This document shows, one piece after another, positions 477 to 34,288 of a DNA stretch of 35,828 nt. The stretch lies in the NCBI GenBank assembly GCA_003605085.1, contig QZKD01000013.1, positions 1-35,828 on the forward strand, given 5' to 3'. The position numbers and the translations under genes are program-made. Under the pieces are notes generated by a model. That model made no database searches, was not told where the DNA came from, and saw only the letters and a list, made by a program, of their open reading frames with translations. Origin of the DNA: Acholeplasma sp. Lineage in GTDB: Bacteria > Bacillota_I > Bacilli_A > Acholeplasmatales > Acholeplasmataceae. How positions within the stretch are numbered: the stretch's first letter is position 1; each line of letters opens with the position of its first letter.

Positions 477-2288
477 ATGCTAGAAAGAAGTCAAGTACTG
501 ATCTGTGGCGGAACAGGGTGCATGAGTTCTCATTCCAAAGAGATCAAGCATCGATTTGAAGAAGTATTGCATACTCTAGAAATGACCGATGAAGTCGGGT
601 TAGTCTTAACCGGCTGTTTCGGGTTATGCGAAAAGGGACCCGTCGTTGTCATTTATCCAGAAGAAACATTTTATACCCATGTGACACCCGATGATGTCAA
701 AGAGATTTGTGAAGAACATCTTCTCAAAGGACGACCTGTCGAAAGACTTTTGGTTAAAGATCCCGTGGATAAAAAGAAAATTAAAAACATGGGACAACTC
801 AAGTTCTATTCAAAACAACGTCGAATTGCCTTAAGAAATTGCGGGAATATCAACCCTATGGTCATCGATGAATATATCGCTAAAGATGGTTATATGGCCT
901 TAGGTAAAGCTTTAACGACAATGACACCTCAAGAAGTCATCGATGAAATGATTAAGTCAGGTCTGCGTGGACGTGGGGGTGGTGGATTCTCCACAGGAAA
1001 GAAATGGCAATTCGCAAGAAACTCTGTTTCTGATCAAAAATATGTCATTTGTAACGCGGATGAAGGCGATCCGGGTGCATTCATGGATCGTGCTGTACTC
1101 GAAGGTGATCCGCATTCCGTATTGGAAGCTATGGCGATCTGTGGTTATGCCATTGGTGCAAATCAAGGGTATATTTATGTTCGTGCAGAATATCCTGTTG
1201 CTGTTGAAAGACTCAATATTGCGATTAAGCAAGCAAGAGAGTATCAACTCTTAGGTCAAAATCTTTTTGGAACAGACTTCAATTTTGATATCGATATTCG
1301 TTTAGGTGCAGGCGCTTTCGTGTGTGGTGAAGAAACCGCATTGATCGCATCGATTGAAGGTTATCGTGGGATGCCAAGATTGAAACCTCCATTCCCCGCA
1401 GTTAAAGGTCTTTGGGGGAAACCCACCAACGTCAATAACGTAGAAACATTTGCCAATGTTCCAGTCATCTTTCTTAAAGGAGCAGATTGGTTCAAATCGA
1501 TAGGCACTGAAAAATCAAGTGGAACCAAAGTATTTGCTCTTGGTGGAAAAATTGTCAATACTGGGTTAGTAGAAGTTCCTATGGGCACAACACTGAGAGA
1601 AATCGTCTTTGATATCGGTGGAGGAATTCCCAATAAGCGTAAATTCAAAGCGATTCAAACCGGTGGTCCATCGGGTGGATGCATTACTGAAAAGGATCTA
1701 GATACACCCATCGATTTCGAAAATTTAACCGCTCTTGGTTCTATGATGGGATCCGGTGGGATGATCATTATGGATGAGGATAATTGTATGGTCGATGTCG
1801 CTCGATTCTATCTTGATTTCACTGTGGATGAATCCTGCGGTAAATGTACACCATGTCGTGAAGGAACGCGTCAAATGAAAGCGATCTTGGATCGAATTTG
1901 CGATGGTTTAGGTACGATGAAAGATATCGATGAACTCGAAAGACTCGCGAATATGATTAAAGAAACCTCACTTTGTGGACTTGGTCAAACAGCCCCTAAT
2001 CCAGTATTATCTACACTAAAACACTTCAGACATGAGTATATTGCTCATGTTATCGATAAAGCATGTCCTGCTGGAGTTTGTCGTGAACTGACACACTTTG
2101 TCATTGATGACTCATGTGTAGGATGTACAAAATGTGCGAAAAACTGTCCCACCAATGCAATCACGGGTTGGCAAAGACAAAAACATGTCATCGATCTTGA
2201 TTTATGTATCCGTTGTGGTGCATGTAAGAAGGCATGCCCAGTGGGTGCCATCTCAAGTGTCGCGATTCATCAGGAGAGTCATGTATGA
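477..2288 (+). CDS. hydB: NADH-dependent [FeFe] hydrogenase, NuoF-like flavin/NADH subunit HydB
   Basis: A 603-residue NuoF-like subunit that binds NADH and FMN and passes electrons to HydA. Domain order: thioredoxin-like [2Fe-2S] domain (Cys10, Cys15, Cys47, Cys51); FMN/NADH domain with the glycine-rich GRGGGGF near 165-171 and CNADEGDPGAFMDR at 192-205; SLBB region; a [4Fe-4S] site (ESCGKCTPCREGTRQM, Cys454/457/460, plus Cys500); and two C-terminal ferredoxin clusters (Cys547/550/553/557 and Cys577/580/583/587). This is the full-length architecture of HydB/HndC from electron-bifurcating hydrogenases. Its stop overlaps the hydA start (ATGTATGA). NADH-linked function is well supported; ferredoxin bifurcation is inferred from family and operon. 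Confidence 0.95.
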   Translation: MLERSQVLICGGTGCMSSHSKEIKHRFEEVLHTLEMTDEVGLVLTGCFGLCEKGPVVVIYPEETFYTHVTPDDVKEICEEHLLKGRPVERLLVKDPVDKKKIKNMGQLKFYSKQRRIALRNCGNINPMVIDEYIAKDGYMALGKALTTMTPQEVIDEMIKSGLRGRGGGGFSTGKKWQFARNSVSDQKYVICNADEGDPGAFMDRAVLEGDPHSVLEAMAICGYAIGANQGYIYVRAEYPVAVERLNIAIKQAREYQLLGQNLFGTDFNFDIDIRLGAGAFVCGEETALIASIEGYRGMPRLKPPFPAVKGLWGKPTNVNNVETFANVPVIFLKGADWFKSIGTEKSSGTKVFALGGKIVNTGLVEVPMGTTLREIVFDIGGGIPNKRKFKAIQTGGPSGGCITEKDLDTPIDFENLTALGSMMGSGGMIIMDEDNCMVDVARFYLDFTVDESCGKCTPCREGTRQMKAILDRICDGLGTMKDIDELERLANMIKETSLCGLGQTAPNPVLSTLKHFRHEYIAHVIDKACPAGVCRELTHFVIDDSCVGCTKCAKNCPTNAITGWQRQKHVIDLDLCIRCGACKKACPVGAISSVAIHQESHV

Positions 2289-4042
2289 GCAAATTAGTCC
2301 ATTTGACCATTAATGGTCAACAGATTGAAACATCATCTGAAAAAACAATCTTACAAGCAGCAGAAGAGCATGGAATTTATATTCCTCGTCTTTGTTATTA
2401 TGAAAAAATACATGAAGAAGGTAACTGTCGTGTTTGTTCAGTCAAAGTGAATGGGCAAAAAAATCTTAAACCTGCGTGTCGAACAAACGTTGATGAAGGC
2501 ATGAATGTCATCACAGATGATCTTGATGTCTATAATGCCGTGACGATGAACCTAGAGTTGCTCGCTCATAAGCATCATTTTGAATGTTTCAATTGCTCTA
2601 GAGAAGATAACTGTGAATTTCTTGATCTCTTGCAACGCTATTCCGTAGAAAATGAACTTACCCATCTTTATGGCTATCATGATGCACCTATCTATTATTC
2701 AGATTCAAGTGGAGTCATGACGATTGATAGCAGTAAATGTATTTTATGTGGACGTTGTGTATCCGCATGCCAAGCGTTTACTGGACTCGGTATCTTAAAC
2801 TTTAATGAACGTGGCTCTGAAACGTATGTGGGTCCCGCTCTATTCCATAATCTTGAAGATGCAGGATGCATCTACTGTGGCAAGTGTATTCAAGCATGTC
2901 CCACAGGTGCACTTTCTGAAAAAGATGATATTCGTTTGGTTGAAACTGCCCTTCGTGATCCAAGAAAAACGGTAGTTATTCAAGTTGCTCCTTCCGTTCG
3001 CGCGACACTTGGTGAAGAGTTTGGCTATCCTATTGGGACAAACGTTGAAGGCCAAATGTTCGCTGCACTAAAGAAACTTGGGGTCGATGAAATTATGGAC
3101 ACCAACTTTACAGCGGACTTAACGATTCTTGAGGAAGGTACTGAACTCATCAACAGAATTAAGAATAATGGTCCCTTCCCTATGTTTACCTCATGTTCAC
3201 CGGGATGGGTCAATTACATGGAACTTTATCATCCAGATTTAATTCCCAATCTATCCACATGTAAATCACCTCAACAGATGGCTGGTGCACTCATCAAGAC
3301 CTATTACGCAAAAGAGCTCAATCTCGATCCTAAAAACATCGTTTCAATTTCCATCATGCCTTGCATTGCCAAAAAAGCAGAAGCAAGACGTCATGATATG
3401 GGACGTGAAGGATATGCAGATGTCGATATCGTCTTAACTACTCGCGAACTCGCACGTTTAATTAAGCGAAGAAAAATTGATTTTAATCATTTAGAACCGA
3501 TCAAACCTTTTGGTGTCCTATCCAGTTATACAGGAGCGGGAACTATCTTTGGTGCAACAGGTGGTGTCATGGAAGCTGCACTTAGAACGGTGACTGAAAT
3601 TTTAGAGAATAAACCTACACAAATTGACTTTAAAGAATTACGCGGGACTCAAGATATCAAAGAAGCAACCTATCATGTGGCTGGCTTAGATCTCAATGTT
3701 GCAGTCATCCACGGTGGATTTGCGATTGGTCAATTCCTTGAAGAAATGAAAAAAGGTCAAAAGAAATACCATTTTATTGAAATCATGGGTTGTACCGGTG
3801 GATGTATCAATGGTGGCGGTCAACCGATTGTTCCAGCGTATATCGCTGAGAAAATGGATATCAGAGCACTTAGAGCCAAGGTTCTTTATGATTTAGATCA
3901 GGCAACCGAACTTAGAAAATCACATGAAAATCCTTTTGTTATATCACTCTATGAAAAGTTTTTAGGCCATCCAAATTCGCATCTTGCCCACAAGTTATTA
4001 CATACCCATTATGAAAGACGTGAACCGTATCAAAACATTTAG
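2285..4042 (+). CDS. hydA: [FeFe] hydrogenase catalytic subunit HydA
   Basis: The catalytic, H-cluster-bearing subunit, 585 residues. The start at 2285 is preferred because AGGAG lies 8 nt upstream and the N-terminus then begins at the [2Fe-2S] domain. An in-frame upstream extension would be buried in hydB. Clusters in order: [2Fe-2S] (Cys37, 48, 51, 65); His-Cys [4Fe-4S] (His97, Cys101, 104, 110); two ferredoxin [4Fe-4S] clusters (Cys152/155/158/162 and Cys195/198/201/205). H-cluster motifs are L1 TSCSPGW (302-308), L2 MPCIAKKAE (358-366) and L3 EIMGCTGGCINGG (499-511). L1 differs from the textbook TSCCPGW by a serine at the second Cys. The length and cluster set match multimeric NADH-linked hydrogenases. 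It makes or consumes H2 in the cytoplasm. Confidence 0.95.
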   Translation: MSKLVHLTINGQQIETSSEKTILQAAEEHGIYIPRLCYYEKIHEEGNCRVCSVKVNGQKNLKPACRTNVDEGMNVITDDLDVYNAVTMNLELLAHKHHFECFNCSREDNCEFLDLLQRYSVENELTHLYGYHDAPIYYSDSSGVMTIDSSKCILCGRCVSACQAFTGLGILNFNERGSETYVGPALFHNLEDAGCIYCGKCIQACPTGALSEKDDIRLVETALRDPRKTVVIQVAPSVRATLGEEFGYPIGTNVEGQMFAALKKLGVDEIMDTNFTADLTILEEGTELINRIKNNGPFPMFTSCSPGWVNYMELYHPDLIPNLSTCKSPQQMAGALIKTYYAKELNLDPKNIVSISIMPCIAKKAEARRHDMGREGYADVDIVLTTRELARLIKRRKIDFNHLEPIKPFGVLSSYTGAGTIFGATGGVMEAALRTVTEILENKPTQIDFKELRGTQDIKEATYHVAGLDLNVAVIHGGFAIGQFLEEMKKGQKKYHFIEIMGCTGGCINGGGQPIVPAYIAEKMDIRALRAKVLYDLDQATELRKSHENPFVISLYEKFLGHPNSHLAHKLLHTHYERREPYQNI

Positions 4043-5684: not shown

Positions 5685-5766
5685 CAGTATATTTTGCTAA
5701 AAAAAAGAATAGATAACACAAAAATACATATTTCAAAGTTACTTCAGAATTTTGTTTCTATATATG

Positions 5767-5795
5767 TTGACAACCCATAGTGAATCATATATAAT
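5767..5795 (+). promoter_or_regulatory. Perfect consensus sigma-A promoter of the small RNA unit
   Basis: TTGACA at 5767-5772 and TATAAT at 5790-5795 are separated by exactly 17 nt. Both hexamers match the consensus fully, the strongest promoter seen in the window. The predicted start is near 5802, where a hairpin begins and no ribosome-bound gene follows before a terminator. Confidence 0.88.
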
Positions 5796-5801
5796 ACAAG
5801 T

Positions 5802-5883
5802 GTTTCACCCACCTTTAGTGTGGTGAGACCCGTGAATTGGTCCTAATGTCTACATCCCCCCCAGGCATTAGGACTCTTTTTTT
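5802..5883 (+). ncRNA. Putative small RNA of about 82 nt with two hairpins and C-rich loops
   Basis: The unit runs from a perfect promoter to an intrinsic terminator with no plausible coding region between. Hairpin 1 pairs GTTTCAC (5802-5808) with GTGAGAC (5823-5829), one G-T pair included, and its loop carries CCACCTTTA. A linker of about 10 nt follows. Hairpin 2 is the terminator stem and its 17-nt loop contains seven consecutive C (5856-5862). C-rich unpaired loops are known in Firmicutes small RNAs that pair with G-rich ribosome sites, so a similar role is possible but inferred. The downstream esterase has its own -10 element. I do not recognise an RNA family. Confidence 0.62.
5840..5883 (+). 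terminator. Intrinsic terminator of the small RNA
   Basis: A 9-bp perfect stem (GTCCTAATG 5840-5848 with CATTAGGAC 5866-5874) is followed by TC and seven T. The 17-nt loop is unusually long and C-rich for a plain terminator, so the hairpin may also be the functional part of the RNA. Confidence 0.8.
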
Positions 5884-5896
5884 ATTCATTTTTATA

Positions 5897-5905
5897 TGGT
5901 ACAAT
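5897..5905 (+). promoter_or_regulatory. Extended -10 promoter of the first esterase gene
   Basis: TGG-TACAAT (5897-5905) is an extended -10 element. The -35 position is occupied only by the T-run of the preceding terminator. A start near 5912 would leave a short leader containing GAGG (5918-5921) ahead of the ATG at 5930. This separates esterase expression from the small RNA. Confidence 0.45.
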
Positions 5906-5929
5906 GAAAGAAAAAACGAGGTCAAGACA

Positions 5930-6673
5930 ATGGCAGTAATGGATGTAACTCTGTATTCGGATGCTTTGGGATTTAATACCCATGTACGCATCATTTTTCC
6001 GCAAGATATCAAAAAAAATGAAAAACTTCGTGTTCTTTATTTATTACACGGATATATGGGCGATTATACCGATTGGTCTCGCTTTACCTCAATTGAACGC
6101 TATAACTGGCCTTATCGTTTTGTTATCGTCATGCCTAGTATTCACAATAGTTACTATACAGATGCTAAATTTGGTCTAAATTTTTTTACTTTTGTTGCAA
6201 AAGAACTCCCTTCGTTCATTCAATCCTATCTTCCTGTCTCAATGAAAAGAGAAGATACCTTTGTTGCAGGTTTATCCATGGGAGGGTATGGTGCATTAAA
6301 AATTGCTTTAACGTATCCCGACAGATACGCAAAAGCAGCATCTTTATCAGGTGCACTTGATATCGACGATATTCAATCGTATTCGAAAGGAACACCTCGT
6401 GAACCTTGGTTTCTTGCTATTTTCGGTGAAAATTCTGCAAGAAATACTGGAAATGATTTAAATTATCTTGTTAAAGATGCTCTCGATAAAAAGAAAATAT
6501 TACCCGATCTATTCATCGGTTGTGGGACCGAAGATTTCCTTTATCAGATCAATTTAGATTTTAAAGCCTTTTTAGATCAACATCATGTGTCCTATACATA
6601 CCATGAATCCAAAGGAGATCACAGTTGGGCATTCTGGGATGAATATATACAAAAAGTCTTAGCATGGATATAA
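5930..6673 (+). CDS. Esterase D-type alpha/beta hydrolase (PF00756 family)
   Basis: A 247-residue cytoplasmic hydrolase. The start at 5930 follows GAGG by 8 nt; longer in-frame versions would run through the small RNA and its terminator. The fold signature is clear: YLLHGYMGDYTDW (37-49), nucleophile elbow GLSMGGYG with Ser116, acidic residue Asp202 in CGTED, and catalytic His231 in KGDHSW. Its size matches compact putative esterases related to S-formylglutathione hydrolase and xylan/feruloyl esterases. The substrate cannot be told from sequence. It is convergent with a second esterase of the same family, with back-to-back terminators between. Confidence 0.88.
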   Translation: MAVMDVTLYSDALGFNTHVRIIFPQDIKKNEKLRVLYLLHGYMGDYTDWSRFTSIERYNWPYRFVIVMPSIHNSYYTDAKFGLNFFTFVAKELPSFIQSYLPVSMKREDTFVAGLSMGGYGALKIALTYPDRYAKAASLSGALDIDDIQSYSKGTPREPWFLAIFGENSARNTGNDLNYLVKDALDKKKILPDLFIGCGTEDFLYQINLDFKAFLDQHHVSYTYHESKGDHSWAFWDEYIQKVLAWI

Positions 6674-17447: not shown

Positions 17448-17969
17448 ATGCAAACACAAAACGCAGATGCCAATCGTTTAAATGATCTTGAAAAATACGA
17501 TATGGTTGTTAAAAGATTAGAAGCTCGGGGTGTCATCCTCGAAGATATGGCACAAATCACTCTTGATCTTCAAATGAAATATATACCACAGCTTACGTTT
17601 GAACTCTGTTTGGAACATGTCAAGAGAGTGGTGATGAAGCGTGAAGTTCAACATGCTGTTTTGACAGGACTAGAGCTTGACATACTCGCAGAACAAAATA
17701 AACTTTCAGAACCTTTACTCTCCATGCTCAACAATGACTATGGACTTTATGGTATTGATGAAGTCTTAGCACTATCGATTGTGAATGTGTATGGTTCGAT
17801 AGGTTTTACCAATTTTGGGTATGTCGATAAGACAAAACCGGGAATTATCGGTCGCTTGGATGCAGAAGGGAAAAAAGAGGGTCGTTGTAATACCTTTTTA
17901 GATGATATTGTAGGTGCGATTGCAGCCGCTGCAGCATCCTCAATTGCCCATCGTTTTGCTAATCTCTAA
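17448..17969 (+). CDS. pgpA: Phosphatidylglycerophosphatase A (PgpA/YutG family)
   Basis: 173 residues from the ATG at 17448 (AAGGGG 9 nt upstream). An upstream in-frame ATG at 17415 lies right after the -10 element and is rejected. Family signatures include LEARGVILEDMAQI, KREVQHAVLTGLELD, NVYGSIGFTNFGYVDK (about 116-131) and the C-terminal TFLDDIVGAIAAAAASSIAHR, whose acidic residues are expected to bind metal. The enzyme dephosphorylates phosphatidylglycerophosphate, the last step of phosphatidylglycerol synthesis. Many Gram-positive members (YutG-like) are short and less hydrophobic, like this one. A single-gene unit with its own promoter and terminator. Confidence 0.87.
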   Translation: MQTQNADANRLNDLEKYDMVVKRLEARGVILEDMAQITLDLQMKYIPQLTFELCLEHVKRVVMKREVQHAVLTGLELDILAEQNKLSEPLLSMLNNDYGLYGIDEVLALSIVNVYGSIGFTNFGYVDKTKPGIIGRLDAEGKKEGRCNTFLDDIVGAIAAAAASSIAHRFANL

Positions 17970-33906: not shown

Positions 33907-34288
33907 ATTCAAACGTTAATGCATTCGTTTTCAAACTGAGCCCAGGAGCACTGACACTTAGATTGATATCGAAAGTTAAGGTACCATAAGTGACTTCGTT
34001 TGCTTGAAAATCTTCTTCTGATGCATAGAAGCGAAGTGTGAATGTCATCTTCTTGGAGCCGATTTCTAAGAAATTATCTTCATAGATTTGAGATGCGACA
34101 TTGAAGGCAATTTCATTTAATTCGGCAAGGGATGTGGCATCATTGATGACCACATCCGCTTGGAGAGAGACATCGGTTAAAGTCTGATTTGCGACAACGA
34201 CGATATCCTTAGGTTCAGGATCGCCTTGACATCCAACGAGTAATAAGGTGATCACCAGAAACAGAAGTGTGAATAATGATTTTCTCAT
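33905..34288 (-). CDS. Small lipoprotein of unknown function
   Basis: 127 residues from the ATG at 34288. AAAGGGG lies 9 nt upstream, within the last codons of the pullulanase gene. The signal peptide ends in LLLVGC with Cys20 as the lipidation site. The mature part (about 107 residues) looks like a compact beta-rich domain with alternating hydrophobic strands, for example MTFTLRFYASEEDF and TFDINLSVS. I do not recognise a family. The gap to the pullulanase stop is 4 nt, so the two are one operon. A surface accessory role in glucan binding is plausible but unproven. Confidence 0.7.
   Translation of the reverse strand: MRKSLFTLLFLVITLLLVGCQGDPEPKDIVVVANQTLTDVSLQADVVINDATSLAELNEIAFNVASQIYEDNFLEIGSKKMTFTLRFYASEEDFQANEVTYGTLTFDINLSVSAPGLSLKTNALTFE

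Follow-up and report, generated by a model that had tools for sequence, protein, structure and literature searches.

What would be the function of a perfect promoter that is followed, after only about 82 nt, by an intrinsic terminator? This question is raised by positions 5767-5883 of the DNA analysed here (35,828 nt, hereafter the window), a 35.8-kb contig of a 1.72-Mb assembly. An earlier note, made from the letters alone, had described TTGACA-N17-TATAAT at this place as the only perfect promoter in the window, and this held when the window was scanned for sigma-70 promoters with spacers of 15-19 nt: the -35 box TTGACA (5767-5772, + strand) and the -10 box TATAAT (5790-5795, + strand), 17 nt apart, form the sole perfect example (5767-5795). 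At least one perfect promoter was present in 12 of 100 shuffles of the window.

With its start placed from the -10 box, the predicted RNA of about 82 nt would extend from 5802 to 5883 on the + strand, and its folding was computed both as a minimum-energy and as a consensus structure. Hairpin 1 (5802-5829) carries ACCUUU in its top at 5811-5816, and hairpin 2 (5839-5875), the terminator stem, ends in the loop ACAUCCCCCCC (5852-5862), the proposed seed, whose C7 at 5856-5862 is the only C7 run of the window. A T7 tract (5877-5883), read directly, follows hairpin 2, in agreement with the earlier description of some 82 nt closed by an intrinsic terminator with a seven-C loop. For the 83-nt stretch 5801-5883, the computed folding energy was -31.8 kcal/mol (z -5.7). 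As 50 of 100 window shuffles also contained a C7 run, such a run is by itself not rare, and it is because of its conservation, more than because of statistics from a single window, that the feature is not attributed to chance.

Conservation was determined in 20 genomes of Peloplasma, a genus of wall-less bacteria in the Acholeplasmataceae. BLAST with the RNA gave matches in 19 of them and none in G017; the match in G012 (L019) was rejected as a chance match of 23 nt, and the RNA is therefore counted in 18/20 genomes. The copy in G004 is divided between two contig ends, which leaves 17 full loci. An exact-pattern scan returned 14 records, overlapping the genus matches and including Peloplasma aerotolerans M4Ah and MAGs labelled Acholeplasmataceae, Tenericutes and others; in viral contigs the exact core pattern was not found.

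The -10 box does not vary among the 17 aligned loci; in 16 of them the -35 box starts with TTGA, the perfect -35 itself not being conserved (exact TTGACA in 6/17). Outside the RNA unit the sequences diverge, close relatives excepted. Of the 19 pairs in the two-helix structure, 7 show changes on both sides; 98.8% of the alignment cells pair, and none of 500 shuffles reached the covariation score. Stem 1 covaries, with 5/7 pairs of hairpin 1 changing on both sides, and the loops ACCUUU and ACAUCCCCCCC hardly vary: the invariant columns include C17, C18, U20 and U21 in hairpin 1 and A57, C58, A59 and C61-C66 in loop 2, where T60 and C67 are also kept in at least 90% of the 17 sequences. At the esterase locus of G008, hairpin 2 has no U tract, the C loop is retained, and a second hairpin with T8 comes next.

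The conserved stems with compensatory changes and the kept C run that the earlier note had proposed to look for in relatives were found in the 18/20 genomes, and two of the observations it had named as speaking against an RNA, a lack of conservation and a conserved reading frame, were not made in the 17 full loci. The Rfam search it had suggested came back empty, with no family in Rfam 15 matching within the window at or above gathering score; at E <= 10 over 5700-5960, a single chance match lay outside the RNA, and no riboswitch was found for the window RNA. Judged by sequence comparison, the locus 5767-5883 is almost certainly a real small RNA gene.

The neighbours of this gene are also conserved. 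In the window it lies between an ABC transporter permease gene (PF00528; 4956-5684, + strand) and an esterase gene (PF00756; 5930-6673, + strand). Pfam was applied to the proteins of the window only; judged by ORF sequence similarity, the next same-strand ORF is the esterase in 17/17 full loci, and the upstream ORF is ABC-permease-like in 16/17, being different in G016. The esterase ORF reaches upstream into the RNA unit in two loci (the window and G005) and begins downstream in the other 15/17, and therefore no reading frame through the RNA unit is conserved. By eye, a TGnTAnAAT motif was seen 3' of the terminator in 16/17 loci, in the window as the extended -10 box TGGTACAAT (5897-5905, + strand), and therefore the esterase seems to have its own, separate promoter. 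That this is a stand-alone small RNA with conserved stems and a conserved C run is well supported by the alignments. Further upstream in the window, before the transporter genes, 477-4042 holds genes for a flavin/iron-sulfur protein and an iron-only hydrogenase (Pfam).

Relatives of the RNA were sought with two models, R1 and R2, searched over 88 genomes of the family and 160 genomes of the order, respectively; three R1 matches on the RNA's own opposite strand were dropped. Weaker R1 relatives were found in the genera g10, g12 and g14 and, away from the esterase locus, in Peloplasma (G006, G012, G018), and in Peloplasma, g10 and g12 they precede a response-regulator-like gene. The regulator of the window genome (G000) is OmpR-like, with matches to PF00072 and PF00486. 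At E <= 1e-60 it is present in 16 Peloplasma genomes, 14 of which have an upstream hairpin holding a run of at least five C (C6-C7 in 12 genomes, C5 in G008 and G015, none in G011 and G013). In some genomes, such as G008 and G015, the regulator-linked hairpin has no clear U tract. In G013 (L405) and G011 (L406), a CCCUUU stretch is kept before the same regulator and the next hairpin has no C run. The window genome itself carries a second C7 RNA before its OmpR-type response regulator gene, at G000:C1:28040-28160 (L051, L052, L391), with two C7 runs (G000:C1:28075 and 28130); in its nearest relative, G019, only the terminator C run of this copy is kept.

R2 matched 65 of the 160 genomes at E <= 0.01. 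Matches with a C run or at known loci were obtained in 19/20 Peloplasma genomes, 5/5 of g10, 2/3 of g12, 2/5 of g14 and 2/2 of g15 (the latter at E 1.8e-5 or better), and homologous hairpins whose loops hold C5-C8 are present in four related genera (g10, g12, g14, g15). R2 also matched 29 genomes outside the family, at E of about 1e-4 or worse, and none of the 13 matches inspected contained a C run; these were rejected as homologues, seven being the end of what we take to be an SRP-like RNA and the rest ordinary terminators. When 18 homologous hairpins from four genera were aligned, 10/11 pairs changed on both sides, 99.5% of cells paired and five C were invariant. All 25 homologues outside the esterase locus have a loosely defined -10 box upstream, at 77-86 nt from hairpin 2 in 20, at 39-44 nt in three, and at 65 and 11 nt in the remaining two, where the inner match was taken; CC(C)UUU lies between this box and hairpin 2 in 19/25, and the C run varies from C5 to C8. 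In G085 (L047), the gene after a C6 RNA has the ribosome site GGGGGGAG, which is complementary to the loop of that RNA.

Most of the remaining C7 or G7 runs in the window genome are within coding sequence or tRNA, but one G7 forms the ribosome site of a small membrane protein, an observation that prompted a test of G-run Shine-Dalgarno sites as a class. The sample consisted of 80 Peloplasma loci (630 kb, nine genomes) picked around G6 sites and not whole genomes, with starts chosen by a simple score favouring a strong site and membrane proteins called by a plain hydropathy window. In a first count, a membrane segment was predicted for 62/75 starts 3-10 nt after at least six G, compared with 45/116 after GGAGG in the same DNA; here 6/81 sites with a long upstream frame had been dropped as probably internal, and one gene with two adjacent ATGs was counted twice. 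With one start per ORF, the membrane fraction was 50/56 for sites of at least six G (G6+) against 109/330 for canonical sites (Fisher p 8e-16), and by protein family it was 44/49 against 86/249. The excess is in the same direction in all nine genomes, in small numbers, was reached by 0/20000 within-genome permutations, and is unchanged at hydropathy thresholds from 1.4 to 2.2.

The bias rises from G4 to G6, with 20/28 membrane proteins at G5 sites and 5/15 at G4 sites without a 5-nt canonical match. Canonical sites gave 67/198 for matches of at least 6 nt and 42/132 for 5 nt; sites with a 4-nt match gave 28/86 and weak sites 16/36. The earlier note had named two local sites as candidate targets, AAAGGGG before a lipoprotein at 34288 and AAGGGG before pgpA. 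The first is present before the lipoprotein-like start at 34288 (- strand), and an AAGGGG site lies before the ATG at 17448, the start of a putative pgpA. Each has a G4 run, and as a target class such sites find no support, since G4 sites without a longer canonical match show no bias. Its wider reading therefore survives in part: the conserved stand-alone RNA stands, its anti-ribosome-site character gains indirect support from the membrane bias, and the named local targets are not supported as a class. In the window genome, G6 sites precede an ABC-2 permease, a sugar-type ABC permease, a T2SSF protein, a response regulator and others, and 7/8 of the genes with such sites have membrane segments.

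A comparison sample of 60 loci (477 kb) was picked in the same way, around G6 sites, in seven further genera of the family (16 genomes) where no C7 RNA was detected. There, 22/43 G6+ genes were membrane genes against 77/214 canonical ones (p 0.085), and the contrast with Peloplasma was significant (p 3e-5). Ten genera have no detected C7 RNA, of which g8, g11 and g13 are outside the membrane sample; g2 was counted among the ten despite R2 matches in G024 (E 0.0084) and G026 (E 3.8e-5), the latter being an ordinary terminator without a C run. Six G6+ genes without a membrane segment were counted in the Peloplasma sample and 21 in the other-genera sample, a difference that points the way avoidance of the G-run site by cytosolic genes would predict, though the two samples differ in size. 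One of the six is lipoprotein-like by eye. It is only in Peloplasma that complementary G-rich ribosome sites mark a non-random class of genes, and the contrast between genera could have other causes.

Several results do not favour targeting of G runs by the RNA. In g10 and g12, where a C7 RNA is present, no significant membrane bias was found (7/13, p 0.22, and 2/4). The T2SSF gene, a candidate target whose product we presume to be the protein called comGB, has a G run in only 2/18 orthologues, those of G000 and G019, from which it appears that G-run sites turn over between species. In G012:C70 (L470, L473) the T2SSF gene is in two pieces with a TGA inside the first match, from either a broken gene or an assembly error. 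Extended complementarity to the RNA (GGGGGATGTA) was matched 27 times in the 20 Peloplasma genomes; 16 of these are by position the RNA's own opposite strand, and the remaining 11 are no excess over the 12 of a reversed control, giving no pairing beyond the C run.

Across the 88 genomes, G6-N-ATG was compared with the reversed pattern: Peloplasma has 230 against 89, the five C7-RNA genera have 343 against 135 and ten others 182 against 137, counts that carry little weight because base composition differs and the genera are not independent. There were 4 G6-N-ATG sites against 3 of the control pattern in P. aerotolerans (G001), and g15 has the RNA, yet 11 sites against 12. An 'AT' after the G run was seen at 33/75 sites in Peloplasma compared with 23/116 after GGAGG, but because the difference between genera is 23/56 against 12/43, pairing at this 'AT' is not claimed.

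Calculated duplex energies indicate that the loop could tell the two kinds of site apart. The median for the loop is -17.7 kcal/mol at G6+ sites and -6.5 kcal/mol at canonical sites, and the corresponding values for the assumed 16S 3' end are -12.7 and -10.8 kcal/mol. Therefore, the loop can discriminate G-run from canonical sites, both of which would still be usable by ribosomes. As the G6+ sites of other genera give the same energies, these values speak to possibility and not to use.

The explanation we favour, and hold to be rather likely as a whole, is that the RNA of about 82 nt is transcribed independently and acts in trans as an antisense small RNA, lowering the synthesis of envelope proteins. 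Its seeds would be the two hairpin loops, ACCUUU and above all ACAUCCCCCCC of the terminator. The C7 loop would keep ribosomes off a subset of mRNAs whose Shine-Dalgarno site is a run of at least five G, by pairing with that run, and loop 1 may assist by pairing with AAAGG; this antisense mechanism is probable, and slightly more so than the whole. In Peloplasma the subset would consist mostly of membrane proteins, lipoproteins among them, and from the membrane bias we infer that the C7 loop probably prevents ribosome access to the G-run sites of envelope protein mRNAs. That these form an envelope regulon is an evenly balanced proposition. Together with its paralogue beside the response regulator gene, the RNA would probably lower envelope protein synthesis as a group, for example under membrane stress. 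Control by the adjoining response regulator is a guess from gene position, by analogy to LhrC and RepG.

The esterase gene as next gene in 17/17 full loci, and the relatives before one particular gene, the response regulator, in three genera, could also mean that the RNA is a cis-acting leader, an attenuator or riboswitch of the esterase gene whose terminator is relieved by a ligand or protein. We consider this unlikely, as in 16/17 loci (by eye) the terminator is followed by an extended -10 box of its own, the conserved letters fall within the apical C loop rather than in any evident antiterminator, and Rfam gave no riboswitch match. Hardly less doubtful is that the C loops bind a protein, as a scaffold or sponge, without mRNA pairing: C5-C8 loops on compensating homologous stems would fit a protein site equally well, but this by itself leaves the membrane bias of G-run Shine-Dalgarno sites unexplained.

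It could further be that the RNA is real and the Peloplasma bias arises otherwise, for instance from a tuning of translation initiation on the mRNAs of membrane proteins. The turnover of G-run sites between species, the genera with C7 RNAs and little bias, and the mild excess in other genera are all compatible with this; however, the bias increases from G4 through G6, and the genus with the esterase-linked RNA shows it much more strongly, and we rate this explanation as low as the cis-acting leader. Very improbable is an ordinary terminator with a C run by chance, for although half of the window shuffles contain C7, the loop is nearly fixed while the stems change by compensation, and the -10 box upstream is identical in 17/17 loci.

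Trans-acting antisense action of this kind has precedents. In Firmicutes, C-rich stretches of RsaE/RoxS and other C-rich RNAs of Staphylococcus and Bacillus pair with Shine-Dalgarno sites; the window RNA, which has no Rfam match, is likened to them from descriptions. LhrC is among the Rfam families, and with no Rfam match the window RNA gives no indication of homology to the LhrC family proper. What it shares with LhrC, RepG and sX13 is a conserved C-rich apical loop on a stable hairpin. Listeria LhrC1-5 are reported to be several related small RNAs with a predicted Shine-Dalgarno block of a cell-envelope target, to be linked to a two-component system and envelope stress, and to need LisRK (PMC4132741). 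The window RNA likewise belongs to several related small RNAs with a proposed block of Shine-Dalgarno sites of envelope targets, but it has C7 where LhrC has CUCCC-type motifs (PMC4132741), and its family's link to a regulator is one of gene position, known here from sequence alone.

In Helicobacter pylori, which is unrelated to Peloplasma, RepG is reported to pair, through its C/U-rich terminator loop, with a homopolymeric run of G in the leader of an mRNA, and the RepG gene adjoins an orphan response regulator gene (PMC8295292). Both the C-rich terminator loop set against a G run and the place beside a response regulator gene recur in the family described here; the target of RepG is a variable G repeat in the 5' UTR of one operon (PMC8295292), whereas in the present case many genes have a G run in the Shine-Dalgarno position. 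Similarly, in Xanthomonas the C-rich loops of sX13 (4C and 5C motifs) are reported to repress mRNAs with G-rich motifs near the start codon, and 5% of genes carry such motifs at their ribosome site (PMC3771888); the pairing proposed for the window RNA is of this type. sX13, from a distant lineage, has three stem-loops, and its described targets are of several functional groups and not of a membrane class (PMC3771888).

The small RNA family is taken to be real, without an Rfam match and of a functional kind that is already known, and its class-wide target signature is unusual. In the open-licence literature we found no description of a trans-acting small RNA of the Acholeplasmataceae; predictions exist for Mycoplasma small RNAs (PMC5088518) and a structured leader motif has been described in Acholeplasma (PMC8632094). 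As P. aerotolerans is a cultured, free-living, wall-less member of the genus (PMC11122141), the idea is testable.

The finding that messages with a long G run at the ribosome-binding site encode mostly membrane proteins suggests one RNA switch for the cell envelope. More tentatively, and with the odds somewhat against it, Peloplasma might use a Shine-Dalgarno code in which many envelope mRNAs carry a G run that is avoided in cytosolic genes, with C7-loop RNAs, including a regulator-linked one, silencing the class at once. If true, a wall-less bacterium would possess a translational brake acting on the synthesis of membrane proteins as a whole class, and this class would be reached by one short loop through the way in which its ribosome sites are spelled, so that the regulon could be read directly from genomes. 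Among the loci inspected, a cluster of small paralogous membrane proteins was seen at about 34335 of G000:C17 (L259), in which 5/7 members, counted over G000 and G019, have ribosome sites with at least five G.
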